DNA of 64,000 bases from Pseudomonas izuensis (GTDB lineage: Bacteria > Pseudomonadota > Gammaproteobacteria > Pseudomonadales > Pseudomonadaceae), in contig NZ_WTFT01000004.1 of assembly GCF_009861505.1 (NCBI RefSeq), forward strand, positions 142,822-206,821. The letters are read 5' to 3'. A model generated the notes under the pieces. The model saw nothing but the letters and a program-made list of their open reading frames with translations. It was not told the DNA's origin and made no database searches. Position numbers and translations under genes: made by a program. Below, in pieces: positions 15,638-34,358 of this stretch (position 1 is the stretch's first letter; each line of letters starts with the position of its first letter).

Positions 15638-15875
15638 GTCAAAACCTCCGTGTATCAAAGAATGACCGAGTGTAGTGGTCCACGGCATGGCTTAGCTACC
15701 TCCCTGACAGAGGGACTACGCGGTCATCGGCAATCTCCCGCCAGAAAAGCGGCAAACGCGGGCGTGAACAGTCACCAGAGCCGACAGACGGGGCGCTAGC
15801 ATTGTGAATAATTTTCAAACGCGCAGTTTTCACCCACTAACCGGCCCATCGCGCTGTGCAAAATGTAACCAGCAT

Positions 15876-15991: not shown

Positions 15992-16717
15992 ATGTCTGTG
16001 ATCAATTTCAACATCGCCCAGTGGCGCGCGTGGGCCCCGGGGCTCGAAAGCGTGGACGATTGGCAAGCCTGGAGCCGACAACCGGTCGTGCTGCCGGTCA
16101 GCGATGCCGCTCCCGACGTGTCGTTCCTGCCCGCCATGCAACGCCGACGCCTCAGTCGCCTGGCGCGAATGGCGTTCAGTGTCGGCTGGCCCCTGGCCGA
16201 AGGTCGTGAGGATTTGCCGCTGGTGTTTGTTTCCCGTCACGGTGAAACGCCACGCACCTTCGACATTCTTAGCGATCTGGCCGCCGATCAGCCGCTGTCG
16301 CCGACACAGTTCAGCCTGTCGGTGCATAACGCGATCATCGGCCTGTGGTCGATCATGCGCGGTGAAACCAGCGAAATGACGGCGCTCGCCTCTGCCGGTG
16401 ACGGTCTTGAACACGGCATGCTGGAAGCGGCGGCCCTGCTCGATGAAGGTGCGCCCGCGGTATTGCTGGTGGTGACCGAGGACCAGCCGCCCGAGGCTTA
16501 CTCGACCTGGATCGACGATGTACCTTTTCCTTATGCCGTCGGCCTGCTGATCACACCCGGCAATGACTGGCAGCTGTCGCTGAACAGCCCCGCGGATGCG
16601 TTGTCCAAACCCCGTTGGCCGCACGCGCTGAATCTGTTGCGTACATTGCTTGGCCAGCAAACCACCTGCCAACATGCCTGGAAAAATCGTGTATGGACCT
16701 GGCAACGCAACCCGTGA
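15992..16717 (+). CDS. Beta-ketoacyl synthase-like chain length factor of the aryl polyene pathway
   Basis: A 241-residue protein of the ketosynthase-like N-terminal family typical of APE gene clusters (ApeC-type). It keeps the thiolase-like core (PLVFVSRHGETPRTFDIL, SLSVHNAIIGLWSI) but has Ala/Asn-rich sequence where active ketosynthases have the nucleophilic Cys. It should therefore act as a catalytically silent partner that sets polyene chain length in a heterodimer. It is the first gene of the operon, with GGGA before ATG 15992, and it overlaps the next gene by 25 bp. The family is known from APE systems; its exact partner here is inferred to be one of the two downstream ketosynthases. 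Confidence 0.85.
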   Translation: MSVINFNIAQWRAWAPGLESVDDWQAWSRQPVVLPVSDAAPDVSFLPAMQRRRLSRLARMAFSVGWPLAEGREDLPLVFVSRHGETPRTFDILSDLAADQPLSPTQFSLSVHNAIIGLWSIMRGETSEMTALASAGDGLEHGMLEAAALLDEGAPAVLLVVTEDQPPEAYSTWIDDVPFPYAVGLLITPGNDWQLSLNSPADALSKPRWPHALNLLRTLLGQQTTCQHAWKNRVWTWQRNP

Positions 16718-17505
16718 CCGAAAAGAACCGCGACGCCTATTACTGGCGCCTGCTGGCCACCGCCGCGAGCTTTGCCCTGTTCGGGCTGGGCGGGCTTTGC
16801 CTGCGCCTGGTGGTTTTCCCGCTGCTGGGTTGCCTGCCGGGCGATGCCCAGACCCATCGGCTGCGCGCGCGGCAAACCGTCAGTCGCTGCTTCTGGTTTT
16901 TTGTCCGGTTCATGGCACGCGCCGGTGTGCTGACCTACGACATCCAGGGCGCGGAAAAACTTGGACGGCCCGGGCAAATGATCGTCGCCAATCACCCGTC
17001 GCTGATCGATGTGGTGTTCCTGATCGGCCTGGTGCGCCACGCCAACTGCGTGGTCAAGCAAAGCCTCTGGGAAAACCCGTTCACCCGCGCGCCCCTGCGC
17101 CGTACCGAATACATCAGCAACGACGGCAGCATGGACATGCTCGATGCCGCCGCCGATGCACTGAAAAGCGGCCAGACCCTGATCATCTTTCCCGAAGGCA
17201 CCCGCACCCAACCGGGCCAGGCCCCAGCCTTTCATCGGGGGGGTGCGGCAATTGCCGTGCGGGGTGCGAAAATCCTCACCCCGGTGGTCATCAAGGTCAG
17301 TCCGACGACATTGACCAAGGCCGAGCCCTGGTATCGGATCCCCAAACGCCGCGTGCACTTCAGTTTCCGTGTCGGCGCCGATATAGACCCACAGGCCTTC
17401 GCCGCGCTGGGCCCGGCCCCTCAGGCCTCGCGCAAGCTCAACGATCATTTGCATTCTTACTTCATCAAGGAGCTCGCCGAAGATGAGCGATCTGAACACC
17501 GATAG
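16693..17505 (+). CDS. 1-acyl-glycerol-3-phosphate acyltransferase-like protein (PlsC family)
   Basis: A membrane-anchored acyltransferase of 270 residues. A hydrophobic segment at about 20-50 precedes the catalytic HX4D box (HPSLID, His101 to Asp106) and the substrate box FPEGTR (166-171). In APE operons this type is thought to help attach the polyene to a lipid or glycan anchor in the membrane. The start at ATG 16693 lies inside the previous gene with GGA about 10 bases upstream; a longer frame exists but would overlap by over 100 bp. It overlaps the first carrier protein gene by 23 bp. Its acceptor is unknown. Confidence 0.88.
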   Translation: MDLATQPVTEKNRDAYYWRLLATAASFALFGLGGLCLRLVVFPLLGCLPGDAQTHRLRARQTVSRCFWFFVRFMARAGVLTYDIQGAEKLGRPGQMIVANHPSLIDVVFLIGLVRHANCVVKQSLWENPFTRAPLRRTEYISNDGSMDMLDAAADALKSGQTLIIFPEGTRTQPGQAPAFHRGGAAIAVRGAKILTPVVIKVSPTTLTKAEPWYRIPKRRVHFSFRVGADIDPQAFAALGPAPQASRKLNDHLHSYFIKELAEDERSEHR

Positions 17506-17758
17506 CCTGAACCGGGACATCAAAGAGTTGATCATCGAAGCCCTCGGCCTCGAAGACATCAGCGCCGAAGACATTGGCGACCAACAGACACTGTTCGGCG
17601 AAGGCCTGGGCCTGGACTCGGTTGACGCGCTGGAACTCGGCCTGGCCATTCAGAAAAAGTACGGCATCAAAATCGACGCCGACGCCAAGGACACTCGTAA
17701 TCACTTCAGCAACGTGGCAAGCCTCGCGGCGTTCGTCACTGCAAAACAGGCAGCTTGA
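17483..17758 (+). CDS. Acyl carrier protein 1
   Basis: A 91-residue phosphopantetheine carrier with the attachment motif GLDSVDALEL (Ser46). It should carry the aryl starter or growing polyene as a thioester in the cytoplasm. It starts inside the acyltransferase gene and is followed after 9 bp by a second carrier. The two carriers differ around the serine (LDS versus IDS), which suggests separate partners for starter loading and elongation, as in other APE clusters. Confidence 0.92.
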   Translation: MSDLNTDSLNRDIKELIIEALGLEDISAEDIGDQQTLFGEGLGLDSVDALELGLAIQKKYGIKIDADAKDTRNHFSNVASLAAFVTAKQAA

Positions 17759-17767
17759 GACCGGACC

Positions 17768-18022
17768 ATGCAAACTCGTGACGACATTTTCAACACTCTG
17801 CGCGATGCCCTGGTCGAGCTGTTCGAACTGGACCCCAAACGGGTGAGCCTCGAATCCAACCTGTACCAGGACCTGGAAATCGACAGCATTGACGCGGTCG
17901 ACCTGATCGATCACATCAAACGTCAGACCGGCAAGAAAATCGCCGCCGAGGAATTCAAATCGGTGCGCACTGTCAGTGACGTGGTCGAGGCGGTCTATCG
18001 CCTGGTTCAACCGGCCGCATGA
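17768..18022 (+). CDS. Acyl carrier protein 2
   Basis: An 84-residue carrier protein with phosphopantetheine site DSIDAVDL (Ser40) and the usual four-helix acidic profile. It is the second of two adjacent carrier genes in the operon. Its stop overlaps the start of the membrane protein gene (ATGA at 18019-18022). Which carrier loads the starter cannot be decided from sequence alone. Confidence 0.92.
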   Translation: MQTRDDIFNTLRDALVELFELDPKRVSLESNLYQDLEIDSIDAVDLIDHIKRQTGKKIAAEEFKSVRTVSDVVEAVYRLVQPAA

Positions 18023-18564
18023 GCCGACTGATCGGCCTCGGCCTGCTGCTGGCAGGCCTGCTGTACCCCTTCGCGGTGTATTTCGGCATGGAACATTTTG
18101 CGCCATGGCAGTTCGGTTTGCTGCTGGGCAGTCTGTGGCTGGCGCGGGCGCTGACCGGACGGCGGCGACCGGGCAGCCTGTGGATGGCCACGGTGGCCAT
18201 CGTGTTCTGCCTGTTGCTGGCACTGTTCGACAGCCCTGCGTTATTGCGCTGGTACCCGGTATTGATCAGCGGCTTCATGCTGGTGCTGTTCGGGTCGAGT
18301 CTGATTTACGGTCCACCGATCGTCGAGCGCCTGGCCCAACTGCGTGAGGGGCATCTACCCGTCGAAGGCATTCGCTACACCCGCCAGGTCACCATCGCCT
18401 GGAGTGTTTTTTTTCTCTGCAACGGTTTGTGCGCCGCCGCCCTGACGCTTTGGGCGCCGCTGAGCTGGTGGACGTTGTACACCGGCCTGATTTCCTACGG
18501 ATTGATAGGCCTGATGTTTGCCATTGAATGGCTCATACGACAACGGGTACGAGGCCACTCATGA
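18019..18564 (+). CDS. Integral membrane protein of aryl polyene clusters (COG4648-like)
   Basis: A 181-residue protein with about five to six hydrophobic helices (for example GLGLLLAGLLYPFAVYFGM and a central VAIVFCLLLALF) and short basic loops. It has no enzymatic motif. Proteins of this kind are conserved in APE operons, where their role is unknown; a scaffold or transport role at the inner membrane is possible. It overlaps both neighbours with ATGA junctions. Confidence 0.75.
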   Translation: MSRLIGLGLLLAGLLYPFAVYFGMEHFAPWQFGLLLGSLWLARALTGRRRPGSLWMATVAIVFCLLLALFDSPALLRWYPVLISGFMLVLFGSSLIYGPPIVERLAQLREGHLPVEGIRYTRQVTIAWSVFFLCNGLCAAALTLWAPLSWWTLYTGLISYGLIGLMFAIEWLIRQRVRGHS

Positions 18565-20246
18565 ATTGGATAAAACTTGAGCACCTGTTGCTCAAGGCTC
18601 AGCCGGAGCGTGCCGTAACGGCCGATCCGGCGTTGAATCACGCGCAGTGGTGCGAACAGGCCCTGAGCCTGGCCGCCGGCCTGCAAGCCTTGGGCGTGCG
18701 ACGTATCGCCGTGCACCTGGCAGACGCCGCCGACCTGGCGATTGCCCTGTTCGGCGCCTGGCGCGCCGGGGTCAGCGTCCTGTTGCCGGCCGACTTGCAA
18801 GCCCAGACTCGCCAGCGCTGGTCGGGCGAAGTCGACCTGTGGCTGACCGATCAGCCCGATGACGCCCATCTGAACGATTTCCGCCACCCGCCGCTCAACG
18901 CTGCGGCGCTGGATCTGGATCTGGATCACTGTTCCCTGAGCCTGTGCACGTCCGGCTCCAGTGGCGAGCCCAAGCGCATCGAAAAAAGCCTGCGCCAGCT
19001 GGTCAATGAAGTCGAAGCCCTGGAACGGCTGTGGGGTGCCGACCTGGGCCCCGCCTGCATCATTGGCAGCGTCGCCACCCAACACATTTATGGCCTGCTG
19101 TTTCGGGTGCTGTGGCCGCTGTGCGCCGGGCGCCCATTCGTACGCCTGCAACTGGCCTTTCCGGAAGACCTGCAACGTACCAGTCGCGAACACCCGGCCT
19201 TCGCCTGGGTCACCAGCCCGGCGCTGCTCAAACGGATGGGTGACAATCTCGACTGGCCGGCCTTGAGCGCAGTGCGTCGGGTATTTTCTTCGGGTGGTGC
19301 ATTACCGGCCGAGGCGGCGCAGAGCCTGAACGAACGCCTGCATCAATGGCCGACCGAAATTTTCGGGAGCTCGGAAACCGGGGGCATCGCCTGGCGCCAG
19401 GGGCACGATCTGTGGCAGCCCTTCGCTGATGTTGCACTGAGCCAGGACAATGACGGCGCATTGCTCATCACCTCGCCCTACTTGCCCGCCGGCCACGTCG
19501 AACACACCGCCGATGCCGCGCGAATCGCGGCGGATGGCCGTTTCGAACTGCTCGGGCGACTGGACAGGATCGTCAAACTGGAAGAAAAACGTATCTCGCT
19601 GCCAATGCTGGAACAGGCGCTGACGGCCCATGATTGGGTCTCTGAAGCGCGGCTCGGTGTCGTCCAGGAAAACCGGGCCTCACTGGGAGTGCTGTTGGTT
19701 CTCAGCGAAGCCGGGTTGCACGCCTTGCGCAATCAAGGCCGACGCAGCCTCACCGAGGCCTTGCGCCAACACCTGAGCCAGCATTGTGAAGCCCTGGCCC
19801 TGCCACGGCGCTGGCGTTTGCTGCGGCAACTACCGCTGAACGCTCAAGGCAAACTGCCCCAGGCCGACGTCGAGGCCCTGCTGCTGGCACCGCGCCCCAA
19901 GGCGCCGCAGGTGCTGGAACAGGTTGAAACCGAAGGCGAATGGAGCCTGCAACTGGCCGTGCCACCGGACCTTGCCTATTTCAGCGGCCACTTTCCCCGG
20001 GCGCCTGTGCTGCCGGGAGTGGTACAAGTGGAGTGGGCGCTGAATCTGGGCCAGCACTTGATGAACCTGCCGGCAAAGTTCGCCGGCATGGAAGTGCTGA
20101 AGTTCCAGCAACTGGTGCGTCCGGGGGATGAAGTCCAGTTGCACCTGCGCTTCGACCCGACCCGCAGCAAACTGTATTTCGCCTATCGCAATGAAACCGC
20201 CACCTGCTCCAGCGGGCGGATTTTGCTGGAGGCCGAGCATGCATAA
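18561..20246 (+). CDS. Acyl/aryl-ACP ligase fused to a FabZ/FabA-like dehydratase domain
   Basis: A 561-residue two-domain enzyme. Residues 1 to about 440 form an adenylating (AMP-binding) ligase with the P-loop [10 protein letters not shown] at about 129-138, GSSETGGI, and the C-terminal lid. The last 110 residues form a hotdog dehydratase with [11 protein letters not shown] (His477). It should activate the aryl acid starter and load it onto a carrier protein, and may also dehydrate chain intermediates. In enterobacterial APE clusters, as I recall, the two activities are separate adjacent genes, so this is a fusion. The start at ATG 18561 overlaps the previous stop (ATGA). Its stop codon lies in the 8-bp sequence repeated after the REP doublet. 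Confidence 0.88.
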
Positions 20247-20377
20247 GATTGGTGAGTGCTGCGCACTCATTCGCGAGCAGGCTCGCTCCTACACTGAGCG
20301 GGTGAACACCACAGCCCCCCTGTGGGAGCGAGCCTGCTCGCGATGCAGACACCTCGATCCCTCAGGTGTACCCAAAG
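20247..20377. mobile_element. REP doublet insertion flanked by an 8-bp duplication
   Basis: This 131-bp segment contains inverted REP units at 20271-20294 and 20321-20345. The octamer ATGCATAA precedes it (20239-20246, the ligase stop region) and ends it (20378-20385, the glycosyltransferase start). Removing the segment and one copy gives an 8-bp overlap of the two genes, the arrangement seen at most other junctions here. It therefore looks like an insertion that duplicated its target. Confidence 0.7.
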
Positions 20378-21112
20378 ATGCATAACCCCTGCGCTGTCAT
20401 CCCGGTCTACAACCACGAAACCGCGATCACCACCGTGGTCGATGCAGTGCTCGCCAGCAATCTGCCCTGCATCCTGGTGGACGATGCCAGCGATAAACCC
20501 TGCGCCGTAGTCCTCGATCAACTGGCCCGACGAGACAACATCCACCTGATCCGCCTCGCCGCCAATCAGGGCAAGGGCGGTGCGGTGATGACCGGCCTGC
20601 GTGAAGCGGCGCGCCTGGGCTTCAGCCACGCCTTGCAGGTGGATGCCGACGGCCAGCACGACCTGCAAGACGTCCAACGTTTCATCGAACACTCGCGCAG
20701 CTATCCCGAGGCCGTGATTTGCGGCTATCCGCAGTACGACGCCAGTGTGCCGAAAGGTCGCTTGTATGCCCGTTACCTGACTCACGTCATGGTCTGGATC
20801 AACACCCTGTCATTGCAGATCCGCGATTCCATGTGCGGTTTCCGCGTCTATCCGTTGCCACCGGTCCTGGCCCTGATCGACACCGCGAAGATCGGCAAGC
20901 GCATGGATTTCGACTCGGACATTCTGGTGCGCCTGGCGTGGCGCAATCAGCCGATGCAATGGCTGAAAACCAAAGTCCATTACCCCTTGGACGGTGTTTC
21001 GCATTTCCGGATGTTCCACGACAACGTGTTGATTTCAAGCATGCACACCCGGTTGTTCTTCGGCATGTTGCTGCGCTCGCCCCTGATTCTCTGGCGACGG
21101 TGGCGAGCATGA
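20378..21112 (+). CDS. Family 2 glycosyltransferase of the aryl polyene cluster
   Basis: A 244-residue GT-A fold enzyme. The nucleotide-sugar segment is VIPVYNHETAI at residues 8-18, the metal-binding motif is VDADGQHD (88-95), and a conserved RMDFDSDILVRLAW block precedes the C-terminal amphipathic end. Genes of this kind are standard in APE operons and are proposed to help build the glycan or lipid anchor of the pigment. I chose the ATG at 20378 with AGGTG nine bases upstream; a GTG at 20366 is possible. It overlaps the next gene by ATGA. The donor sugar is unknown. Confidence 0.88.
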   Translation: MHNPCAVIPVYNHETAITTVVDAVLASNLPCILVDDASDKPCAVVLDQLARRDNIHLIRLAANQGKGGAVMTGLREAARLGFSHALQVDADGQHDLQDVQRFIEHSRSYPEAVICGYPQYDASVPKGRLYARYLTHVMVWINTLSLQIRDSMCGFRVYPLPPVLALIDTAKIGKRMDFDSDILVRLAWRNQPMQWLKTKVHYPLDGVSHFRMFHDNVLISSMHTRLFFGMLLRSPLILWRRWRA

Positions 21113-22050
21113 ACGCCGACAAGCAACACTGGGCCGATCGCGAGGAGCGCGGCAGCTTCTGGCTGATGAAATTCACCGCGTGCGCCGCCAAACTGCTCGG
21201 TCGCCGGCTGTTGAGCCCGCTGCTGTACGGCATCGTGTTGTACTTTTTCCTGTTCGGTCGCAGCGCCCGCCACAGCGCCTGGCAATACCAGCGTCGGCTC
21301 GCCGATTGGAGCGGTCGCAGCGAACTGCGCCCGACCCAGTGGCGAGTGTTCGGCCAGTTCATGGCCTTCGCCGATTCCATGCTCGACAAGCTCGACGTAT
21401 GGAACGGCAAGCTGAGCATCGAGCAGATCGAAATCATCGACCCGGCGCTACTGCGCAACAAACTGCGCGGCAGGCGCGGACAGATGCTGGTGGGTGCGCA
21501 TTTGGGCAATCTCGAAGTCTGCCGCGCGCTGGCGGAGATGGGTGAGAAGGTCACGATGAACGTGCTGGTGCACACCAAGCACGCCGCGCAGTTCAACCGG
21601 TTGTTGGGCGAAGCCGGCGCGACCAATCTGCGTCTGATTCAGGTCAGCGAACTGGACCCGGTGATTATGCTGCAACTGCACGAACGCCTGGAGCGCGGCG
21701 AATGGCTGGCGATTGCCGGCGACCGTGTACCGTTGCATGGCGGGCGCAGCGTGACCGTGGATTTCCTCGGCCACCTGGCAAAATTCCCGCAAGGCCCCTG
21801 GCTGCTGGCGGGCCTTTTGAAATGCCCGATCAACCTGCTGCTGTGCCTGAAGAAACCCGACGGTGATTATCGACTGACCATTGAACCCTTCGCTGACGCA
21901 ATCACCTGGAACCGCAGCGACCGCGAGCAGGTCATTCATCAGTGGGCTTCCCGCTATGCCGAGCGCCTGGGTCACTATTGCCTCGAAGCACCTCAACAAT
22001 GGTTCAACTTTTACCCTTTCTGGAAAACCGATGACGACGCCAACGCTTGA
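21109..22050 (+). CDS. LpxL/HtrB-family acyltransferase
   Basis: A 313-residue inner-membrane acyltransferase of the lipid A late-acyltransferase family. It has a TM segment at about 35-50 (LLYGIVLYFFLFGRS), the catalytic box GAHLGNLEVCRA (His with a downstream acidic residue), and a GDRVPLHGG block. In APE clusters this homologue probably transfers an acyl or polyenoyl chain onto the anchor rather than acting on lipid A. The start at 21109 overlaps the glycosyltransferase stop, and it overlaps the ammonia-lyase gene by 20 bp. The acyl donor is not predictable from sequence. Confidence 0.86.
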   Translation: MNADKQHWADREERGSFWLMKFTACAAKLLGRRLLSPLLYGIVLYFFLFGRSARHSAWQYQRRLADWSGRSELRPTQWRVFGQFMAFADSMLDKLDVWNGKLSIEQIEIIDPALLRNKLRGRRGQMLVGAHLGNLEVCRALAEMGEKVTMNVLVHTKHAAQFNRLLGEAGATNLRLIQVSELDPVIMLQLHERLERGEWLAIAGDRVPLHGGRSVTVDFLGHLAKFPQGPWLLAGLLKCPINLLLCLKKPDGDYRLTIEPFADAITWNRSDREQVIHQWASRYAERLGHYCLEAPQQWFNFYPFWKTDDDANA

Positions 22051-23575
22051 GCCGGTAACCTTCGGCGAACTCCCTTTGCGCATCGAAGACGTGCTGGCCC
22101 TGGCCAACCGCCAGGCGCCGACGCAGTTGCAGGGCGACCCCGCGTACCGCGAGCGTATCGCCAAGGGCGCGCGCTTTCTCGATTCCCTGCTGGACAAGGA
22201 AGGCGTGATCTATGGCGTGACCACCGGTTACGGCGATTCCTGCGTGGTGGCGGTTCCGTTGCATCACGTCGAGGCGTTGCCCCGTCATTTGTACACGTTC
22301 CACGGCTGCGGGCTGGGCAAGCTGCTCGACGCCCAAGCCACCCGGGCGGTGCTGGCGGCGCGGTTACAGTCGCTGTGCCACGGCGTGTCCGGGGTGCGCG
22401 TGGAACTGCTGGAGCGCCTGCAAGCCTTCCTCGAACACGACATCCTGCCGCTGATCCCGGAAGAAGGCTCGGTAGGCGCCAGCGGCGATCTGACGCCACT
22501 GTCCTATGTCGCTGCCACCCTGTCCGGCGAGCGTGAAGTGATGTTCCGTGGCGAACGCCGTCAGGCGGCCGATGTGCACCGTGAACTCGGCTGGCAGCCG
22601 CTGGTGCTGCGTCCCAAGGAAGCCCTGGCCCTGATGAACGGCACAGCGGTGATGACGGGGCTCGCTTGCCTGGCCTACGCCCGCGCCGATTACCTGCTGC
22701 AACTGGCGACCCGTATCACCGCGTTGAACGTGGTCGCCCTGCAAGGCAACCCGGAGCACTTCGACGAACGTCTGTTCGCCGCCAAACCGCACCCGGGGCA
22801 GATGCAAGTCGCCGCGTGGTTGCGCAAGGATCTGGCGATCGACGCACCGACCGCGCCGCTGCATCGCCTGCAGGACCGCTATTCCCTGCGTTGTGCGCCT
22901 CACGTGCTCGGCGTGCTGGCCGACAGCCTGAACTGGTTGCGTTCGTTCATCGAGATCGAACTCAACAGCGCCAACGACAACCCGATCATCGACGCCGAGG
23001 CCGAACGCGTGCTGCACGGTGGGCACTTCTATGGCGGCCATATCGCCTTTGCCATGGACAGCCTGAAAAACCTGGTGGCCAACGTCGCCGATCTGCTGGA
23101 TCGCCAGCTCGCGCTGCTGGTGGATGAACGCTATAACCATGGACTGCCGAGCAATTTGTCCGGTGCCAGCGCCGAGCGCGCGATGCTCAATCATGGCTTC
23201 AAGGCCGTGCAGATCGGCGCCAGTGCCTGGACCGCCGAAGCGCTGAAAAATACGATGCCGGCCAGCGTGTTTTCACGCTCCACCGAATGCCACAATCAGG
23301 ACAAGGTGAGCATGGGCACCATCGCCGCCCGTGATGCGATTCGCGTGCTGGAACTGACCGAACAGGTCGCCGCCGCCACGCTGTTGGCTGCCAATCAGGG
23401 CGTGTGGCTGCGCGAACAGGCGGACGATGCACGACCACTGCCACCCGCTCTGGCCGCCATGCACGAGGAATTGTCCAGGGACTTCCCGCCGGTCATCGAA
23501 GACCGCGCGCTGGAAAGCGAGTTGCGCCTGTGCCTGCAACGAATCGCCGAACAACACTGGAGGCTGCATGCGTAG
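22031..23575 (+). CDS. MIO-dependent aromatic amino acid ammonia-lyase (HAL/TAL family)
   Basis: A 514-residue enzyme that removes ammonia from an aromatic amino acid. The autocatalytic MIO cofactor tripeptide is Ala150-Ser151-Gly152 in GSVGASGDLTPLSY; the active-site loop VIYGVTTGYG and NDNP motif are also present. Typical histidine lyases have Ser-His, and bacterial tyrosine lyases often His-Leu, at the substrate-selectivity pair; here it aligns as Phe90-His91. Placed in a polyene operon, it probably makes a cinnamate- or coumarate-type starter from Phe or Tyr rather than urocanate. It overlaps neighbours by 20 and 8 bp. Family certain, substrate inferred. Confidence 0.9.
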   Translation: MTTPTLEPVTFGELPLRIEDVLALANRQAPTQLQGDPAYRERIAKGARFLDSLLDKEGVIYGVTTGYGDSCVVAVPLHHVEALPRHLYTFHGCGLGKLLDAQATRAVLAARLQSLCHGVSGVRVELLERLQAFLEHDILPLIPEEGSVGASGDLTPLSYVAATLSGEREVMFRGERRQAADVHRELGWQPLVLRPKEALALMNGTAVMTGLACLAYARADYLLQLATRITALNVVALQGNPEHFDERLFAAKPHPGQMQVAAWLRKDLAIDAPTAPLHRLQDRYSLRCAPHVLGVLADSLNWLRSFIEIELNSANDNPIIDAEAERVLHGGHFYGGHIAFAMDSLKNLVANVADLLDRQLALLVDERYNHGLPSNLSGASAERAMLNHGFKAVQIGASAWTAEALKNTMPASVFSRSTECHNQDKVSMGTIAARDAIRVLELTEQVAAATLLAANQGVWLREQADDARPLPPALAAMHEELSRDFPPVIEDRALESELRLCLQRIAEQHWRLHA

Positions 23576-23993
23576 CAAGGGAGTGCTCCACACCGATACG
23601 GAAATCCTCGTGCCGTTCTTTGACGTCGACAGCATGAACGTTGTCTGGCACGGCCATTACGTCAAATACCTGGAAATCGCCCGCTGCGCGTTGCTGGACA
23701 AGATCGGCCATAACTATACGGCCATGTCCGAAACGGGCTACGCGTGGCCGGTGATCGACCTGCAACTGCGTTATGTGCGCGGCGCGGTGTTTGGCCAGCG
23801 GCTGAACGTGCGCGCCAATCTGGTGGAGTGGGAGAACCGCTTGAAGATCAACTACCTGATCAGCGATCTGGAAACCGGTGAACGTCTGACCCGTGCCGTT
23901 TCCGTGCAGGTAGCCGTCGATATGAGCAACCGCGAGATGCAACTGGCCTCGCCGAAGGTCTTCACCGACGCTGTGGAGAGGGCCCTGCCATGA
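23568..23993 (+). CDS. 4-hydroxybenzoyl-CoA thioesterase-like hotdog protein
   Basis: A 141-residue single hotdog protein of the YbgC/4HBT type. The catalytic segment is FFDVDSMNVVWHGHYVKYLEIAR, split here as FFDVDSMNVVWHGHY and VKYLEIAR, with Asp and His-Tyr residues at the usual places. It probably releases or edits thioesters on the carrier protein or CoA during polyene synthesis. The start at ATG 23568 lies in the ammonia-lyase stop region (8-bp overlap), and the stop forms ATGA with the next gene. Longer in-frame starts are antisense or shadow sequence of the lyase gene. Confidence 0.88.
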   Translation: MRSKGVLHTDTEILVPFFDVDSMNVVWHGHYVKYLEIARCALLDKIGHNYTAMSETGYAWPVIDLQLRYVRGAVFGQRLNVRANLVEWENRLKINYLISDLETGERLTRAVSVQVAVDMSNREMQLASPKVFTDAVERALP

Positions 23994-27017: not shown

Positions 27018-28174
27018 TGATTGCACTGTTTTGGGTAATGGCCCTGACGCTGTTCGCCGTGGCGACCCGAATCGGTCGCCACTTCGGCTTGATTCCGATC
27101 GTCAGTCAGTTGCTGTTGGCGACCGTTGGCTTGCCGTTGCTGATGTACTTCTGGATCGAGCCGCAATGGCAATTGAACGGCGCGGCGCTGGTGTCGCCGG
27201 TCTGGCTGAAAAACCTGTATAGCCTCAGTTTCGCGCTGTTGCTGGGCTATATCCTCAGCGATGTGATCGACCTGCACCTGGACCGCCAGAGCCTGAAAAT
27301 CGCCTTGCCGAGCTTCTGCATTCCGTTTGCCTGCGGCCTGGCCACGGCGATCTGGCTGTTGCCGGCGCAACCCTGGATCAGTTCCCTGGCGGTCGGCCTG
27401 TTGTTCGCCATTACCGCGATCCCGGTGCTGTACCTGTACCTGCGGCATATCGATTACCCGCCCGCCGCCACCCGACGGCTGGTGCAGACCGCGATCCTCA
27501 TCGACCTCACCTGCTGGACCCTGTTTGCCATCGCCCAGGGCACTCTGCACCTGAGCAGCCTGTTGCTGCCGTTGGCCGGCGCCTGCCTGCCCGTGCTGCT
27601 GAGACTGCTGGGGCTGCGTCAACTGTGGCTGTACAGCCTGAGCTTTTTCGCCCTGCTGGTGGTGGCCGAACACTACAAGCTCAATGCGCTGATTTTCGGC
27701 ATTGGCTATGTATTGATCATGGCGGCGTTGAAAGCGCCGCTGGTACTGCCGTTGCCGGCGATCTGGATGAGTCGCTTGCAGACCTACATGGCCATTCCGC
27801 TGATCCTCACCTTCGGCATCGTGCAAATCAACGTGCACAGCGCGATGGACAGTCTTGGCTGGGTGCAACTGGCGGCGCTGCTGCTGTTGCCGATTGCGAG
27901 CAAACTGCTGGGCAACTGGCTCGGTCTCGGCTGGGCCGGCGCCTCGTTCCAGGGTGCCAGCCGGTGGCGGGAAAGCGTGCTGCTGAACATTCGCGGCTTG
28001 AGTGAGATCGTGTTTCTCAACCTGCTGCTGCAACAACAGCTCATCAGCCCGGCGCTGTACTTTGCGCTCATGCTGATGGGCCTGGTCGCGACCCTGCTGC
28101 CGGCATTGGCCGGCATGCACCGGATCCCCTTGAACGCTGCCGCCCCGGCAAGGAGCCCTCATGCCAACCGTTGA
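27014..28174 (+). CDS. CPA2-type cation/proton antiporter-like membrane protein
   Basis: A 386-residue protein with about 11-12 hydrophobic helices and no large soluble domain. The segment NIRGLSEIVFLNLLLQQQLIS resembles the conserved TM-domain signature of monovalent cation:proton antiporters of the CPA2/Kef type; the segment is given here in part as RGLSEIVFLN. Acidic residues in helices (SDVIDLHLD, TAILIDLT) fit ion exchange. It has no regulatory KTN domain. It overlaps the exporter gene (ATGA) and the flavoprotein gene (14 bp), so it belongs to the pigment operon, but its contribution (ion balance or product flux) is unknown. Family call is moderate, function open. Confidence 0.65.
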   Translation: MMIALFWVMALTLFAVATRIGRHFGLIPIVSQLLLATVGLPLLMYFWIEPQWQLNGAALVSPVWLKNLYSLSFALLLGYILSDVIDLHLDRQSLKIALPSFCIPFACGLATAIWLLPAQPWISSLAVGLLFAITAIPVLYLYLRHIDYPPAATRRLVQTAILIDLTCWTLFAIAQGTLHLSSLLLPLAGACLPVLLRLLGLRQLWLYSLSFFALLVVAEHYKLNALIFGIGYVLIMAALKAPLVLPLPAIWMSRLQTYMAIPLILTFGIVQINVHSAMDSLGWVQLAALLLLPIASKLLGNWLGLGWAGASFQGASRWRESVLLNIRGLSEIVFLNLLLQQQLISPALYFALMLMGLVATLLPALAGMHRIPLNAAAPARSPHANR

Positions 28175-29408
28175 AACGGAACATCGCCAGATCGTGGTTA
28201 TCGGCGCAGGCCCTTCGGGCGCCATCGCCGCCGCGCTGCTCAAGCGCAAGGGACATGATGTACTGGTGATCGAGCGCCAGCATTTCCCACGGTTTTCCAT
28301 CGGCGAAAGCCTGTTATGCCACTGCCTGGATTTCGTCGAAGAAGCGGGCATGCTCGACGCCGTCAACGCTGCCGGTTTCCAGCTGAAAACCGGCGCCGCG
28401 TTTGCCTGGGGCGAGCAGTACAGCACCTTCGATTTCAGCGAAAGCTTCAGCCACGGCAAACCGACGACCTTCCAGGTGCAACGCGCCGATTTCGACCAGT
28501 TGCTGGCCGATCAGGCGGCGCTGCAAGGGGTGGAAATCCGTTATGGCGAAACCATCGCCAGCGTCGCTGTCGATCAAGGCAAGCCAGGGCTTGGCGTACG
28601 TCGCGAGGACGGCAGCGTATACCGCATCGAGGCTGATTTCCTGCTCGACGCCAGTGGTTACGGACGCGTCCTGCCACGCCTGCTCGACCTCGAAGCACCG
28701 TCGAACTTCCCGGTGCGCCAAGCGGTGTTCACCCACGTCGAAGACTTTATCGACAGCCCGGCTTTCGATCGCACCAAAATCCTCATCACCACCCACCCGA
28801 CCCAGCGCGATATCTGGTTCTGGACCATCCCGTTCAGCAACGGACGCTGCTCGGTGGGCGTGGTCGCGGCCGCCGAACACTTCGAGGGCCGCACCGACAA
28901 TCTGGACGACTGCCTGCGCGGTTTCATTGCCCAAACGCCAAGTCTGGCCAGCGTGCTGAACAATGCCGTATGGGACACGCCTGCGCGCACCATCGGTGGT
29001 TACTCGGCCAACGTCAAAACCCTGCATGGACCGGGATTTGCGCTGCTGGGTAACGCGGCGGAATTCCTCGACCCGGTGTTCTCCTCCGGCGTCACCATTG
29101 CCATGCGCTCGGCGAGCATGGCCGCTGGGGTGCTGCACCGCCAGTTACAGGGAGAGACGGTGGACTGGCAAAAAGAATTCGCCGAACCGCTCAAGCGCGG
29201 CGTCGATACCTTCCGTTGCTACGTCGAAGGCTGGTACTCGGGGACTTTCCAGGACGTGATTTTCCATGAGGGCAGCTCGCCGGAAATCCGCCGCATGATC
29301 AGCTCGATCCTGGCCGGTTATGCCTGGGACGCGCGCAATCCGTTCGTCAGCGAGGCCAAGCGTCGGTTGAAGGTCATATCCGAACTGTGCGCAAGGAATG
29401 CGACATGA
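28161..29408 (+). CDS. FAD-dependent oxidoreductase with flavin-halogenase signatures
   Basis: A 415-residue class A-type flavoprotein. The dinucleotide-binding motif is VVIGAGPSGAIAA at 12-24. RFSIGES, Lys76 in GFQLKTGAAFAWG, and WFWTIP at 219-224 fit the conserved lysine and WxWxIP motifs of flavin-dependent halogenases, especially those acting on phenols or carrier-bound substrates. Related proteins include hydroxylases and geranylgeranyl-reductase-like enzymes, so chemistry is not proven. In this operon it could halogenate, hydroxylate or oxidise the aryl ring of the polyene. It starts inside the transporter gene and ends in an ATGA overlap with the methyltransferase, so it is co-expressed with a likely aryl-modifying partner. 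Confidence 0.78.
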   Translation: MPTVETEHRQIVVIGAGPSGAIAAALLKRKGHDVLVIERQHFPRFSIGESLLCHCLDFVEEAGMLDAVNAAGFQLKTGAAFAWGEQYSTFDFSESFSHGKPTTFQVQRADFDQLLADQAALQGVEIRYGETIASVAVDQGKPGLGVRREDGSVYRIEADFLLDASGYGRVLPRLLDLEAPSNFPVRQAVFTHVEDFIDSPAFDRTKILITTHPTQRDIWFWTIPFSNGRCSVGVVAAAEHFEGRTDNLDDCLRGFIAQTPSLASVLNNAVWDTPARTIGGYSANVKTLHGPGFALLGNAAEFLDPVFSSGVTIAMRSASMAAGVLHRQLQGETVDWQKEFAEPLKRGVDTFRCYVEGWYSGTFQDVIFHEGSSPEIRRMISSILAGYAWDARNPFVSEAKRRLKVISELCARNAT

Positions 29409-30130
29409 GCTATTTGAGCGACAACTACGTCGAAGAAACCCGATTCGGCCTTTGGTTCCTGCGAAGCCATGCCTGGCAGCACTATGTGCTGCGCGTGGCG
29501 GTCAACGACTTGCGCAGCCTGTTCAGCGAAGCCCCGCCAAGCCATCCGGTGCTGCTGGATGCCGGTTGCGGCCAGGGCAAGTCATTCCAGTACCTGCGCC
29601 AGGCCTTCATGCCCGGGCGCCTGATCGGCGTGGACGCCGACCCGCACAGCCTGAACCGCAGCCGTGAAGAAGCGGTCAATCAGGGTATGACGGTGGAGTT
29701 GATCGGCAGCGACTGCGCCAGTATCAATGTACCGGACGCCAGCGTTGACCTGCTGTTCTGCCACCAGACCTTTCATCATCTGGTGGAGCAGGAACAGGCG
29801 CTGGCCGAGTTTTACCGCGTGCTCAAGCCCGGCGGCTATCTGCTGTTCGCCGAATCCACCGAGGCTTACATTGATACTTGGGTGATCCGCTGGCTGTTCC
29901 GTCACCCGATGCACGTGCAGAAAAGCGCCGCGCAGTACCTGGAGATGATTCGCCGGCAGGGTTTCGAATTTGGCCCGCGAAACGTGTCTTATCCGTACCT
30001 GTGGTGGAGCCGCGCCAAGGATTTTGGCCTGTTGGAATGTTTGGGCCTGAGCAAGCCGAAGCCCTTTGGCCAGCGGGAAGAAACCCTGGTCAATGTGGTT
30101 GCGCGCAAACCCCTTGAAGGTGCTGTTTGA
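29405..30130 (+). CDS. SAM-dependent methyltransferase
   Basis: A 241-residue class I methyltransferase. SAM-binding motif I is VLLDAGCGQGKSF (about 50-62), with GVDADP as the acidic motif II and a LKPGGYLLFAEST motif near residue 150. In APE clusters a methyltransferase is expected to O- or C-methylate the aryl head group. The start at ATG 29405 overlaps the flavoprotein stop. The end lies directly before the REP-disrupted start of the lipoprotein gene. The position of methylation cannot be told. Confidence 0.88.
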   Translation: MSYLSDNYVEETRFGLWFLRSHAWQHYVLRVAVNDLRSLFSEAPPSHPVLLDAGCGQGKSFQYLRQAFMPGRLIGVDADPHSLNRSREEAVNQGMTVELIGSDCASINVPDASVDLLFCHQTFHHLVEQEQALAEFYRVLKPGGYLLFAESTEAYIDTWVIRWLFRHPMHVQKSAAQYLEMIRRQGFEFGPRNVSYPYLWWSRAKDFGLLECLGLSKPKPFGQREETLVNVVARKPLEGAV

Positions 30131-30160
30131 TGTTCACTGCCCGTTGCTCGATGCACTCTC

Positions 30161-30262
30161 CTGTAGGAGCGAGCTTGCTCGCGAAAAACGCATGGTCAAC
30201 GCGTTTATTCAGACAGCACGCGTTATCGTTAACGCCCATCGCGAGCAAGCTCGCTCCTACAG
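30161..30262. repeat. REP doublet at the methyltransferase-lipoprotein junction
   Basis: Inverted units lie at 30161-30184 and 30239-30262, with a spacer almost identical to 24015-24116 in the same orientation. The 102 bp keep an open frame that continues into the lipoprotein gene from an ATG at 30130. Unlike the other two junctions, no clean flanking duplication is visible. Confidence 0.85.
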
Positions 30263-30267
30263 GGGTA

Positions 30268-30756
30268 GTGAGTATTCTGCGATTTTTGTTGTTAGGTTTT
30301 GCCATGTTGCTCAATGCCTGCGCCAGCCAGGCGCCGTTGCCCGAGCAAACGCCGAATCTGTCGCTGCCACTGCAATTGCACATTCAGCGGCTGCAAGCCG
30401 AACAGCGTCAGGACTGGGTGCTGGTGATCCAGCGGGAAGGCCCGGCCATTCGCTGGTCGATGATGGACCTGCTGGGCATTCCCCAGGCACGCCAGAAGCT
30501 GATTGGCGGCCAATGGCGCGCCGATGGCTTGCTGCCACCCAACCCCGAGGCCCGGGAGCTGTTCGCCGCGCTGCTGTTTGCGCTGACCCCGCAAAAGGAG
30601 TTGAACGGCAACTATCCGGCAGCCTGGCAACATGGCGCCCAACGCTCCTTGCCGGAGCGTTGGGACGTCCGCTATTCACAACCGATGAGCTTTGAATTGA
30701 ACCTGCCCAAAGGTCCGAAATACCAAGTCACGCCACTGAGCGGGGAGGCACCATGA
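30268..30756 (+). CDS. DUF3261-like outer-membrane lipoprotein of the aryl polyene cluster
   Basis: A lipoprotein of 162 residues if translated from GTG 30268 (VSILRFLLLGFAMLLNACAS), with the lipobox LLNAC where Cys would be acylated. The mature protein resembles the small DUF3261 lipoproteins found in APE operons, possibly part of the export machinery at the outer membrane. The alternative is ATG 30130 in a TGATG overlap with the methyltransferase stop, which stays in frame through the REP doublet and would add 46 residues. The AGGGG before the GTG is only 2 bases away, so the real start is uncertain. It overlaps the next gene by ATGA. Confidence 0.72.
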   Translation: MSILRFLLLGFAMLLNACASQAPLPEQTPNLSLPLQLHIQRLQAEQRQDWVLVIQREGPAIRWSMMDLLGIPQARQKLIGGQWRADGLLPPNPEARELFAALLFALTPQKELNGNYPAAWQHGAQRSLPERWDVRYSQPMSFELNLPKGPKYQVTPLSGEAP

Positions 30757-31949
30757 CCGCCTACCTGAACGCCCTGGGGGTCATCTGCTCCCTGGGCCGT
30801 GACAAGCACGAAATCGCGCGCAACCTGTTTGCCGGCGATTGTTCCGGCATGCGCAGCGAAGCCGGCTGGGTGCCGCAACGCTCCTTGCCGGTGGGCGCGG
30901 TGCGGGGCGAACTGGCGGCGATTCCCGCCGGACTGTCCCGGCAAAACACCCGCAACAATCAGCTGCTGATGGAAGCCGCCCTGCAAATTCGCCAGGACAT
31001 CGATCACGCGATCCAGACGTATGGTCGCGACCGTATCGGCGTCGTTCTTGGCACCAGCACATCGGGCATCGACGAAGCCAGCCAGGGCCTGGCCCATTAC
31101 ATCCGCGAGCACCATTTCCCGGCGGAATACGACTACCAGCAACAGGAACTCGGCGCGCCGGCCAGTTTTCTCGCTGACTGGCTGCAACTGAGCGGCCCCG
31201 CTTATGTAATTTCCACCGCTTGTACCTCCAGCGCCCGGGCGCTGATGAGCGCCCAGCGCCTGCTCGACCTCGGGGTCTGCGACGTGGTGTTGTGCGGTGG
31301 CGTCGACAGCTTGTGCAAACTGACCCTCAATGGTTTCTCGGCGCTGGAAGCGGTGTCCGATCAGCGCTGCAACCCGTTCTCGGTCAACCGCAACGGCATC
31401 AATATCGGCGAAGCGGCCGCGCTGTTCCTGATGAGCAAGCAGGCGGGCGGCAACTCACCGATTGCCCTGCTCGGCAGCGGCGCCAGCTCCGATGCGCATC
31501 ACATTTCCGCGCCGGAACCTACCGGGCGAGGCGCTTTGCAAGCGATGCACAAGGCGTTGAACCGCGCCGGCCTGCAACCGCAACAGATCAGTTACCTGAA
31601 CCTGCACGGCACCGCCACCCAGCACAACGACGCCATGGAAAGCCGGGCGGTGGCCGCCCTGTTCCCCGCCGGCGTGCCCTGTTCCTCGACCAAACCCATG
31701 ACCGGCCACACCCTTGGCGCAGCCGGCGCGCTGGAGGCGGCGTTCTGCTGGTTGAGCCTGAGCGCAGGCAACCCTGAACATGCCCTGGCGCCGCATGTCT
31801 GGGATGGCCAACCGGATCCTGAGTTACCTGCCCTGAATTGGGTGACCCCGACCGATCGCCTGGCGTCCACAGGTCCTCGCTACCTGATGAGCAATTCCTT
31901 CGCCTTCGGTGGCAACAACGTCAGCCTGATTATCGGAGACGCCCCATGA
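30753..31949 (+). CDS. Beta-ketoacyl-ACP synthase (aryl polyene elongation, first copy)
   Basis: A 398-residue FabF-type ketosynthase with a full Cys-His-His triad: Cys157 in STACTSSA, His285 in LHGTATQ and His319 in MTGHTLGAAG. It performs decarboxylative condensation of malonyl-ACP with the growing chain. In APE systems one ketosynthase pairs with the chain-length factor and the other forms a separate dimer; which role this one has is not certain from sequence. It overlaps the lipoprotein and dehydratase genes by ATGA on both sides. Confidence 0.92.
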   Translation: MTAYLNALGVICSLGRDKHEIARNLFAGDCSGMRSEAGWVPQRSLPVGAVRGELAAIPAGLSRQNTRNNQLLMEAALQIRQDIDHAIQTYGRDRIGVVLGTSTSGIDEASQGLAHYIREHHFPAEYDYQQQELGAPASFLADWLQLSGPAYVISTACTSSARALMSAQRLLDLGVCDVVLCGGVDSLCKLTLNGFSALEAVSDQRCNPFSVNRNGINIGEAAALFLMSKQAGGNSPIALLGSGASSDAHHISAPEPTGRGALQAMHKALNRAGLQPQQISYLNLHGTATQHNDAMESRAVAALFPAGVPCSSTKPMTGHTLGAAGALEAAFCWLSLSAGNPEHALAPHVWDGQPDPELPALNWVTPTDRLASTGPRYLMSNSFAFGGNNVSLIIGDAP

Positions 31950-32407
31950 TTGACTGGCCGCTCGCCGAATTGCTGCCCCACGCTGGCGACATGATCCTCA
32001 TCGACCGGATCCTGGCGTTCGATGAGGAGCAGATTCACACCCGCCTCACGGTCAAGCCCGACGGGCTGTTCAACCGCCCCGACGGCAGTTTGCCGGCCTG
32101 GGTCGGCATTGAGCTGATGGCCCAGAGCGTCGCGCTCTTCGCCGGTTGCCATGCACGCCAGCGTGGGGATGCGGTGGAGCTCGGCTTCCTGCTGGGCAGC
32201 CGAAAGTTCGAATGCAACGTCGAGAGTTTTCCAGCGGGGACCGAACTGACCATCCACGGCATTCGCTCGCTGGAAGACGACAATGGCATGGGCGTGTTCG
32301 AATGCCACATCAACGCACCGGACATTCATGCCACTGCCCGTCTGAACGTGTACCGCCCGCCTCAGCCGGCTCAATATCTTGATGAACCCCAAGGAACCCA
32401 ATCATGA
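31946..32407 (+). CDS. Hotdog 3-hydroxyacyl-ACP dehydratase (ApeP-like)
   Basis: A 153-residue hotdog protein. LLPHAGDMILIDRI (His12) matches the catalytic His loop of FabZ/FabA-like dehydratases, and GIELMAQSVALFAGCHAR forms the central helix. It should remove water from 3-hydroxyacyl intermediates to generate the conjugated trans double bonds of the polyene. Coupled by ATGA overlaps to the upstream ketosynthase and downstream ketoreductase, giving the order KS-DH-KR-KS. Confidence 0.9.
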   Translation: MIDWPLAELLPHAGDMILIDRILAFDEEQIHTRLTVKPDGLFNRPDGSLPAWVGIELMAQSVALFAGCHARQRGDAVELGFLLGSRKFECNVESFPAGTELTIHGIRSLEDDNGMGVFECHINAPDIHATARLNVYRPPQPAQYLDEPQGTQS

Positions 32408-33132
32408 CTGAATCCGTACTGGTCACCGGTTCCAGCCGTGGCATCGGCCGCGCCATCGCCCTGCGCCTGGCCCAGGCCGGACATGACATCGTGCTGCATT
32501 GCCGCAGCGGCCTGACGGACGCCATCGCGGTGCAGGGCGAAATCGAAGCCTTGGGGCGCAAGGCGCGCGTCCTGCAATTCGACGTGTCGGACCGCGCCGC
32601 TTGTAAGACCATCCTTGAAGCCGACGTGGAAACCCACGGTGCCTATTACGGTGTGGTGCTCAACGCCGGACTGACCCGTGACGGTGCTTTTCCGGCGCTG
32701 AGCGAGGATGATTGGGATGTGGTGATGCGCACCAACCTCGACGGTTTCTACAACGTACTGCACCCGGTGATGATGCCGATGATCCGTCGTCGCGCCGCCG
32801 GGCGAATTGTTTGCATCACCTCGGTGTCCGGGCTGATCGGCAACCGCGGCCAGGTCAACTACAGTGCCTCCAAGGCCGGTTTGATCGGCGCGGCGAAGGC
32901 GTTGGCGATCGAACTGGGCAAACGCAAGATCACCGTCAACTGTGTTGCGCCCGGCCTGATCGACACCGCGATGCTCGATGAAAACGTGCCGGTGGAAGAA
33001 CTGATGAAAATGATCCCCGCACAACGCATGGGCACCCCCGAAGAGGTGGCCGGCGCGGTGAATTTCCTGATGTCGGCGGAAGCCTCGTACATCACCCGGC
33101 AGGTTTTGGCCGTCAATGGAGGCCTGTGTTGA
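32404..33132 (+). CDS. 3-oxoacyl-ACP reductase (FabG-like, ApeQ-like)
   Basis: A 242-residue short-chain dehydrogenase. The NADPH-binding motif is TGSSRGIGR (8-16), the catalytic residues are Ser140, Tyr153 and Lys157 (NYSASK), and a FabG-like VNGGLC lies at the end. It reduces the 3-keto group after each condensation. Overlaps both neighbours (ATGA upstream, TGATG downstream). Confidence 0.93.
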   Translation: MTESVLVTGSSRGIGRAIALRLAQAGHDIVLHCRSGLTDAIAVQGEIEALGRKARVLQFDVSDRAACKTILEADVETHGAYYGVVLNAGLTRDGAFPALSEDDWDVVMRTNLDGFYNVLHPVMMPMIRRRAAGRIVCITSVSGLIGNRGQVNYSASKAGLIGAAKALAIELGKRKITVNCVAPGLIDTAMLDENVPVEELMKMIPAQRMGTPEEVAGAVNFLMSAEASYITRQVLAVNGGLC

Positions 33133-34358
33133 TGAAACGCGTCGTCGTCACCGGCATGGCCGGCATCACCTCACTGGGCAGCGACTGGGACACCATTGTC
33201 GGCAACTTCGCGGCCAACCGCAGCGGCATCCGCCGGATGGATGAGTGGGATCGCTTCACCGAACTCAACACGCGCCTGGCCGGCCCTATCGATGACTTCA
33301 AGGTGCCGAGCCACTGGACCCGCAAACAGCTGCGCAGCATGGGCCGGGTATCACGGCTGGCGGTCGGCGCGGCGGAACAGGCGCTGGCCGACGCCGGATT
33401 GCTGGGCGACGAATCGATCAAGGACGGGCGCATGGGCGTTGCTTGCGGCTCGTCCACCGGCAGCACCGACGAGATCAAGGCGTTCGGCAACATGCTGCTC
33501 AACTCAGTGGCCGAAGGCCTGAACGCCAACTCCTACGTGCGCATGATGCCGCACACCACGGCGGCCAATATCAGCATTTTCTTCGGCCTTACCGGCCGGC
33601 TGATCCCGACGTCCAGCGCCTGCACCAGTGGCAGCCAGGGCATCGGTTATGCCTACGAAGCCATCAAGTTCGGACGCCTGCCGCTGATGCTTGCCGGTGG
33701 CGCCGAAGAGCTGTGCCCGACCGAAGCCATGGTCTTCGACGCGCTCTATGCCACCAGCCTGAAAAACGACACCCCGCAGTTGTCCCCCCGTCCCTACGAC
33801 AGTGCTCGCGACGGCCTGGTGATCGGTGAAGGCGGCGGCATGCTGGTGCTCGAAGAACTGGAACACGCCCTCGCCCGGGGTGCGCACATCCATGCCGAGA
33901 TCGTCGGCTTCGGCAGCAACGCCGACGGCCAGCACACCACCCGTCCGGAGCAAGTCACCATGCGCCGGGCCATGGAACTGGCGCTGGAAGATGCAGGGCT
34001 CAAACCGTCGGACATCGGCTACGTGAACGGTCACGGCACCGCGACAGAGCAAGGTGACATCGCCGAAACCCTGGCCACCAGCAGCCTGTTCGGCGAACAC
34101 ATGCCGATCAGCTCGCAGAAGAGTTTCCTGGGCCACACCCTTGGCGCGTGCGGTGCGCTGGAGTCCTGGTTCAGCATCGAAATGCTCAACCGCGACCTGT
34201 ACGTGCACACCCTCAACCTGGACGAGGTTGATCCGAACTGCGGCAAGCTCGACTACCTGCGCGGTGAGTTCCGGCAGATGAGCAATCAATTTGTGATGAA
34301 CAATAACTTTGCGTTTGGTGGGGTGAATACGTCGCTGATTTTCAAGCGCTGGTCATAA
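33132..34358 (+). CDS. Beta-ketoacyl-ACP synthase (aryl polyene, second copy)
   Basis: A 408-residue FabF-type ketosynthase with active site Cys164 in SSACTSGS, His301 in NGHGTATEQ and His335 in FLGHTLGACG. It is the last gene of the operon and shows the usual APE division of labour with a second condensing enzyme. I chose ATG 33132 in a TGATG junction; GTG and TTG codons lie just upstream in frame. No T-rich hairpin follows directly, but a REP doublet begins about 30 bp later. Confidence 0.92.
   Translation: MKRVVVTGMAGITSLGSDWDTIVGNFAANRSGIRRMDEWDRFTELNTRLAGPIDDFKVPSHWTRKQLRSMGRVSRLAVGAAEQALADAGLLGDESIKDGRMGVACGSSTGSTDEIKAFGNMLLNSVAEGLNANSYVRMMPHTTAANISIFFGLTGRLIPTSSACTSGSQGIGYAYEAIKFGRLPLMLAGGAEELCPTEAMVFDALYATSLKNDTPQLSPRPYDSARDGLVIGEGGGMLVLEELEHALARGAHIHAEIVGFGSNADGQHTTRPEQVTMRRAMELALEDAGLKPSDIGYVNGHGTATEQGDIAETLATSSLFGEHMPISSQKSFLGHTLGACGALESWFSIEMLNRDLYVHTLNLDEVDPNCGKLDYLRGEFRQMSNQFVMNNNFAFGGVNTSLIFKRWS

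Follow-up and report, generated by a model that had tools for sequence, protein, structure and literature searches.

A genus-typical aryl polyene operon in Pseudomonas izuensis with a likely tyrosine-derived starter and apparent repeated deletion of add-on genes

We analyzed a 64,000-nt stretch of the Pseudomonas izuensis genome (hereafter the window), in which positions 15992-34358 of the + strand hold an operon with the predicted function of aryl polyene (APE) biosynthesis. The operon consists of 20 complete + strand open reading frames (ORFs), each with one stop; an initial annotation had recognized the operon and put it at about 19 genes, a count that falls short. The near-continuous overlaps that it described are borne out: 16 of the 19 gene junctions overlap by 1-25 bp, and three are gaps of 9, 131, and 137 bp, with repetitive extragenic palindromic (REP)-type repeats inside both long gaps. 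This is an ordinary, genus-typical APE operon, a system of a known kind whose mild surprise is evolutionary. We think it probable that it represents the commonest Pseudomonas form of the APE-Vf-like operon and that its pathway leads from tyrosine through a p-coumarate starter to a yellow polyene acid.

Domains were called by Pfam and NCBIfam scans, and amino acid identities refer to the ape stretch of Escherichia coli CFT073, in which ApeB is only partly covered. The operon begins with an ApeC-like chain length factor (Ketoacyl-synt_2; 15992-16717; PF13723, E 8e-80; 34% to ApeC), followed by an ApeD-like lysophospholipid acyltransferase (16693-17505; PF01553; 38%), two acyl carrier proteins (ACPs) resembling ApeE (17483-17758; PF00550; 51%) and ApeF (17768-18022; PF00550; 57%), and an ApeG-like small membrane protein (18019-18564; 46%) without a Pfam match at 1e-3. 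An aryl-ACP ligase is fused to an ApeI-like dehydratase (18561-20246; PF00501 and PF22818; ApeH and then ApeI matches). The two halves of ApeJ are represented by separate genes: a family 2 glycosyltransferase for the N-terminal half (20378-21112, with an alternative GTG start at 20366; PF00535; 54%) and a lipid A-type acyltransferase for the C-terminal half (21109-22050; PF03279; 35%). Beyond an ammonia-lyase gene (22031-23575) lie an ApeK-like 4HBT thioesterase (23568-23993; PF13279; 47%), an ApeL-like LolA-type carrier whose 5' end reads through a REP pair (23990-24694; PF03548; NF053544 below cut-off), and an ApeM-like MMPL/RND-type exporter (24678-27017; PF03176 just below its cut-off; 30%). 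These are followed by a membrane protein resembling cation-proton antiporters (CPA; 27014-28174), a halogenase-like flavoprotein (28161-29408), and an S-adenosylmethionine (SAM)-dependent methyltransferase (29405-30130), which together with the lyase we treat as add-on genes. The operon closes with an ApeN/DUF3261-like lipoprotein (30268-30756), an ApeO-like ketosynthase with the catalytic Cys present (30753-31949; PF00109/PF02801; 48%; ACT motif), an ApeP-like dehydratase (31946-32407; PF22817, E 2e-22), an ApeQ-like ketoreductase (32404-33132; PF13561; 59%), and an ApeR-like ketosynthase (33132-34358; PF00109; 55%). The lipoprotein matches DUF3261 weakly, below cut-off, and has an LNAC lipobox-like motif by eye; its GTG start follows a REP pair, and the frame is open from 30127.

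One cluster thus holds the biosynthetic set of an APE pathway (ketosynthase and chain length factor, ketoreductase, ApeI- and ApeP-like dehydratases, ACP, and ligase) together with its envelope set (acyltransferases, LolA-like carrier, MMPL-like exporter, and lipoprotein, the MMPL and DUF3261 Pfam scores being below cut-off). These domains and the collinearity with E. coli ape support the APE assignment of the initial annotation, and the ammonia-lyase, halogenase-like flavoprotein, and methyltransferase that it listed are all present (PF00221, Trp_halogenase PF04820, and Methyltransf_11 PF08241, respectively).

The starter unit is where the lyase matters most. This protein (PF00221, E 1e-161) is of the type that carries a 4-methylideneimidazole-5-one (MIO) group and is likely a tyrosine ammonia-lyase: it combines the MIO motif ASG with FH and CHNQD at the substrate sites. 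Throughout the genus, all 112 lyases of nearly full length read ASG, FH, and CHNQDK at these three diagnostic sites, while a histidine ammonia-lyase (HutH) of the same genome has ASG, SH, and ANQED. We rejected an assignment as histidine ammonia-lyase on these motifs. The mix resembles that reported for FlxA of the flexirubin pathway, which has a first motif like that of histidine lyases and a second like that of tyrosine and phenylalanine lyases (PMC3992019). FlxA prefers tyrosine over phenylalanine about 1000-fold, with no product detected from histidine, and the ring and adjacent double bond of flexirubin derive from tyrosine (PMC3992019). Since the signatures of the operon lyase are those of an aromatic and not a histidine lyase, a starter derived from tyrosine is likely, and the initial proposal of a starter made from an aromatic amino acid is probably correct, given these signatures and the analogy to FlxA.

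Several observations weigh against the reading proposed here. In each of its eight NCBIfam family matches the lyase stays under the cut-off, reaching 320 of 700 bits for the FlxA model NF053541 and 386 of 539 for HutH. It is absent from one otherwise intact Pseudomonas operon (L115) and was undetected in 15 of 26 APE-like stretches from a sample of the class, many of which are incomplete. In addition, the available text of the cited literature describes no characterized product or enzyme of any Pseudomonas APE operon. The absence of the lyase from some operons means that 4-hydroxybenzoate could also serve as a starter, and one alternative makes it the actual starter, as in E. coli and Xenorhabdus, with the lyase either feeding it through shortened coumarate or providing a side supply. 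The operon ligase is indeed a homologue of ApeH, which loads 4-hydroxybenzoate in Xenorhabdus (PMC8253772), and no lyase was found in the clusters of Cupriavidus (L085) and Pseudomonas L115. We nevertheless regard 4-hydroxybenzoate as an unlikely starter here: the lyase is retained in 113 of 114 complete genus loci while other add-on genes are often gone, which suggests that it is needed, and flexirubin offers the precedent of a ring and double bond taken from tyrosine (PMC3992019). Two further aromatic-lyase genes lie next to each other on the same contig about 86 kb downstream of the operon (G000:C34:252183-255196), with HutH motifs in the sequence read.

Flavin-dependent halogenases are marked by GxGxxG and WxWxIP motifs and an active-site lysine, and the operon flavoprotein has these halogenase motifs, with WxWxIP at residue 219 and K76 as the lysine. 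Both GxGxxG and WxWxIP are conserved in all 109 genus homologues, and the lysine pattern fits 108 of them and was not found in one; among 15 further homologues from class and phylum loci, WxWxIP is present in 15 and the lysine pattern in 11. The closest solved relative is 3nix, which was deposited as a flavoprotein/dehydrogenase, and the next best are named halogenases. Against the model of the halogenase CmlS, the protein scores 167 of 900 bits, far under the cut-off. The flavoprotein possibly halogenates the phenol ring. We put only a little short of an even chance on its being another flavin adenine dinucleotide (FAD) oxidase or hydroxylase that acts on ring or chain: the label of 3nix, the wide shortfall against CmlS, and the presence of the gene in several taxa for which we know of no halogenated APE all favor such an enzyme, while the near-invariant halogenase motifs and the named halogenases among the second-best solved relatives argue for a halogenase. 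The methyltransferase (PF08241) likely methylates the head group, and a 61% homologue lies beside an APE cluster of Caballeronia. The flavoprotein and methyltransferase stand as candidates for the ring-modifying enzymes that the initial annotation proposed, and head-group methylation and halogenation are both known differences among APEs (PMC8253772).

The remaining add-on protein had been labeled a CPA2-type transporter, which is plausible at the level of the superfamily but is not borne out by a direct model match. The protein matches no Pfam or NCBIfam model, and PF00999 gave no match even at an E value of 10. A profile of 18 genus transporter sequences, compared by hhalign, matched two clear PF00999 proteins (L244 and L246) with 97.9% probability over 346 columns, so that full-length homology to the CPA superfamily is reached through distant homologues. 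A structure model from 20 close sequences was too poor to use (mean predicted local distance difference test score, pLDDT, 48.9).

By analogy to characterized relatives, the proteins can be arranged into a pathway. The ammonia-lyase would convert tyrosine to p-coumarate, which the ligase would load on a carrier protein, and a type II, fatty-acid-like cycle would lengthen this starter into a yellow polyene acid. In that cycle, the ketosynthase and chain length factor pair (30753 and 15992), the second ketosynthase (33132), the ketoreductase, and the two dehydratases would build the conjugated chain, with the thioesterase assisting loading or release. The acyl- and glycosyltransferases would then attach the polyene acid to a lipid anchor, and the MMPL-like exporter, LolA-like carrier, and lipoprotein would move the product to the outer membrane, with the CPA-like protein probably in a supporting role, either for the exporter or for membrane ion balance. 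The phenol ring is likely methylated by the methyltransferase and possibly halogenated by the flavoprotein. Judged from sequence, the product is most likely a membrane-bound yellow APE, lipid-anchored in the outer membrane, with optional methylation and possibly halogenation of the ring.

To place the operon within the genus, we used two sets of loci. The first was found by the transporter, and the best 80 of 215 confirmed stretches were kept as named loci. All of these best 80 are titled Pseudomonas, and the genes present keep the operon order in 80 of 80, far beyond chance, the chain length factor lying beyond the flank and some loci ending at contig ends. The second set is a genus census queried with the ApeP family, so that its loci were not chosen by any add-on gene. 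The ApeP family occurs in 118 of 149 genus genomes, P. izuensis included, and 68 of the 117 other loci contain all 20 genes in the order of the window. Presence in the census means a match to at least 40% of each protein, a threshold that a frameshifted gene can still pass, and one locus (L094) yielded several partial matches. The 20-gene order is the commonest form of the operon in this Pseudomonas sample. Thus, the initial description of an expanded set does not hold, and we rejected it: over half of the loci share the same 20 genes, and clusters with an ammonia-lyase have already been described in Pseudomonas.

The add-on genes differ in how far they extend beyond the genus. A class sample of 274 genomes gave 36 with an ApeP match, 28 of them above cut-off including the window, and 26 of the 27 others were compared, with presence set at a match to at least 30% of the window protein and several stretches ending at contig ends. 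The lyase is present in 11 of the 26 and the flavoprotein in 13 (in one at only 24% identity), and neither methyltransferase nor transporter was found in any of the 26. Two second ApeP matches (L236 and L238) have no other operon gene alongside. Six stretches from a plasmid collection were selected by the flavoprotein: two Pseudoalteromonas and one Acinetobacter stretch carry lyase and flavoprotein at equivalent places; no lyase accompanies the flavoprotein in Cupriavidus; the Caballeronia cluster includes the lyase, with flavoprotein and methyltransferase (61%) lying beside it; and in Aureispira, the flavoprotein is joined by two weak matches. In a phylum sample of 299 genomes, strong transporter matches occur only in the host family (five genomes, including the window), with weak matches of 26-31% identity in 15 more. 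Outside the genus, the methyltransferase was seen in these samples in Caballeronia and in a further genus of the host family (L243), and nowhere else. Taken together, the class, plasmid-collection, and phylum counts make the lyase and flavoprotein widespread parts of APE clusters and the transporter, in these samples, confined to the host family.

Within Pseudomonas, the core and the add-on genes behave differently. Losses were counted in the 114 genus loci that are complete at both ends, a requirement that selects against decayed clusters; two loci on short contigs (L174 and L208) and an apparent cluster remnant (L156) were left out. None of the 16 core genes is missing from any of the 114, while the transporter is missing from 39, the methyltransferase from nine, the flavoprotein from six, and the lyase from one. 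Among 113 loci, 67 have all four add-on genes, 31 lack only the transporter, and six lack only the methyltransferase; combined absences involve transporter and flavoprotein (five loci), transporter and methyltransferase (two), flavoprotein and methyltransferase (one), and lyase and transporter (one). The remnant L156 (genome G091) retains only dehydratase, ketoreductase, and ketosynthase genes, with no other operon gene in the two stretches examined.

These absences are scattered across trees of the operon. A genus tree built from eight further proteins of the operon (113 loci and the window; L094, L156, L174, and L208 dropped) requires 11 changes for the transporter, seven for the methyltransferase, and four for the flavoprotein, all forced by branches starred in that tree. 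The absences are mildly clustered, with four changes against a shuffled mean of 5.9 for the flavoprotein and seven against 8.8 for the methyltransferase. The region is covered in 78 named loci, of which 13 show no methyltransferase match and one (L079) retains a quarter of the gene, while L055, matched over 72%, was scored as present. On a tree of five operon genes (77 named loci and the window; L022, L027, and L060 dropped for missing genes), methyltransferase absence (14 rows) takes 10 changes, at least nine of which are forced by well supported branches. Both trees were built from operon genes with FastTree, and the two locus sets share strains; whole-operon transfer may lie behind the pattern.

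The change counts do not separate gain from loss, so the scattered absences might instead reflect several gains of these genes, or their relocation within the genome. The sites themselves favor loss. Where the methyltransferase is missing, its first and often its last codons are still in place, and about ten different junctions can be told apart by eye. The scars in L007, L008, L023, L029, L030, and L034 each form an in-frame ORF, 13-20 codons long, that ends in a stop of its own, and in L013 and L021, the leftover start reads straight into the lipoprotein frame; G114 retains a methyltransferase stub. Many transporter-less sites keep, by eye, the last bases of the transporter, which contain the likely ribosome-binding region of the next gene, and G086 retains a decayed transporter piece. 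Sites without the flavoprotein showed no clear leftover codons, which fits gain as well. A full copy elsewhere in the genome was found for the methyltransferase in none of the nine genus genomes lacking it, for the flavoprotein in none of six, and for the transporter in none of the 12 searched of 39; other matches were weak or partial. Given the persisting codons and the lack of full copies in the genomes searched, we consider repeated gain or relocation very improbable. In related strains, the add-on genes appear to have undergone repeated deletion. In one of the scarred loci, L007, no single match covers more than half of the ligase gene, the rest of the operon being in order; this may come from a frameshift or an assembly error.

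The repeated absence of methyltransferase and flavoprotein suggests that natural variation among Pseudomonas APEs probably includes ring methylation and possibly halogenation. That decoration is often dropped and the pigment core kept may reflect either neutral loss, the genes being dispensable, or selection that favors varied surfaces. In a stronger form of the latter, which we find doubtful, a fixed 16-gene core would be coupled to a three-gene swap block (transporter, flavoprotein, and methyltransferase) that is repeatedly and cleanly deleted because selection favors changing the ring decoration while the pigment is kept; methylated, unmethylated, halogenated, and bare head groups would then coexist in one genus, perhaps in response to phages, predators, or host recognition. 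We found no report of repeated add-on loss in Pseudomonas APE operons in the open-licence literature, including the available text of PMC8719888, PMC6722718, and PMC8704066, and titles and abstract openings in that literature gave nothing relevant on an APE with both ammonia-lyase and halogenase or on a tyrosine route in Pseudomonas. The natural methyltransferase deletions in otherwise whole operons offer ready-made comparison pairs, such as P. umsongensis DSM 16611 (L008, without the gene) and P. jessenii DSM 17150 (L041, with it). Such pairs would allow a first test, without engineering, of how ring methylation affects pigment, membrane, and stress, and in this respect the operon offers a natural experiment in the tailoring of the head group.

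REP elements are frequent in this region. Inverted pairs of the REP/REPIN type lie in and around the operon at 14756-14835, 20271-20343, 24021-24110, 30167-30256, 34395, and 35121-35283. The core pattern occurs 267 times per strand in the P. izuensis genome; one relative has a total of 80 occurrences and another has none, and the reversed control gave none. One pair (copies at 24021 and 24093) sits in frame inside the 5' end of the LolA-like ORF (23990-24130), with TTTTCTG repeated on both flanks; the LolA-like protein may therefore have acquired an extension, encoded by the repeat, ahead of its signal peptide, or it may start at a GTG after the repeat. By a loose pattern, REP-like sequence is found at the LolA-like junction in 36 of 79 named relatives and before the lipoprotein in 41 of 78. 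Upstream of the operon, the - strand encodes a ParA-like ATPase (14867-15688), judged by eye from the translation.

Among known systems, the ape cluster of E. coli CFT073, whose gene functions we took from Table 1 of PMC8253772, has collinear counterparts of 15 of the 20 operon proteins in ApeC-ApeM and ApeO-ApeR, with identities of 29-59%. At the cut-off used, it offers no match to the lyase, transporter, flavoprotein, or lipoprotein, nor does the methyltransferase match the partial ApeB stretch compared. The Pseudomonas operon also differs in the fusion of ligase and ApeI and the split of ApeJ into two genes. For arcuflavin, of the xanthomonadin kind, Table 1 of PMC3949708 lists halogenase, methyltransferase, Na/H antiporter, and LolA genes, but the starter acids are supplied by a chorismate enzyme of the XanB2 type (PMC3949708). 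Domain scans recognized no such enzyme among the 20 operon genes, and we rejected a xanthomonadin-type cluster on that ground. The flexirubin (flx) cluster of Chitinophaga pinensis obtains its starter from a tyrosine ammonia-lyase and includes LolA, glycosyltransferase, acyltransferase, and exporter genes (PMC3992019), although the operon lyase falls well under the FlxA model cut-off. The same scans recognized no dialkylresorcinol genes (darA/darB) among the 20, and in C. pinensis these sit in a cluster apart from flx (PMC3992019). The two Pseudoalteromonas clusters and the Acinetobacter cluster (L086, L090, and L088) share the gene order: the lyase follows the acyltransferase and precedes the thioesterase, and the exporter is followed by the flavoprotein, but the stretches compared contain no methyltransferase or CPA-like match. 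Finally, Pseudomonas APE clusters have been reported as similar to APE-Vf (PMC5851621, PMC8719888, PMC6722718, PMC8704066), the cluster of Aliivibrio fischeri ES114 (MIBiG BGC0000837), a likeness that we take from these reports. An ammonia-lyase is named in APE-Vf-like clusters by PMC5851621 and PMC8719888, the latter using it as their marker, and by that marker the P. izuensis operon, with its lyase inside the cluster, would be of this APE-Vf type.

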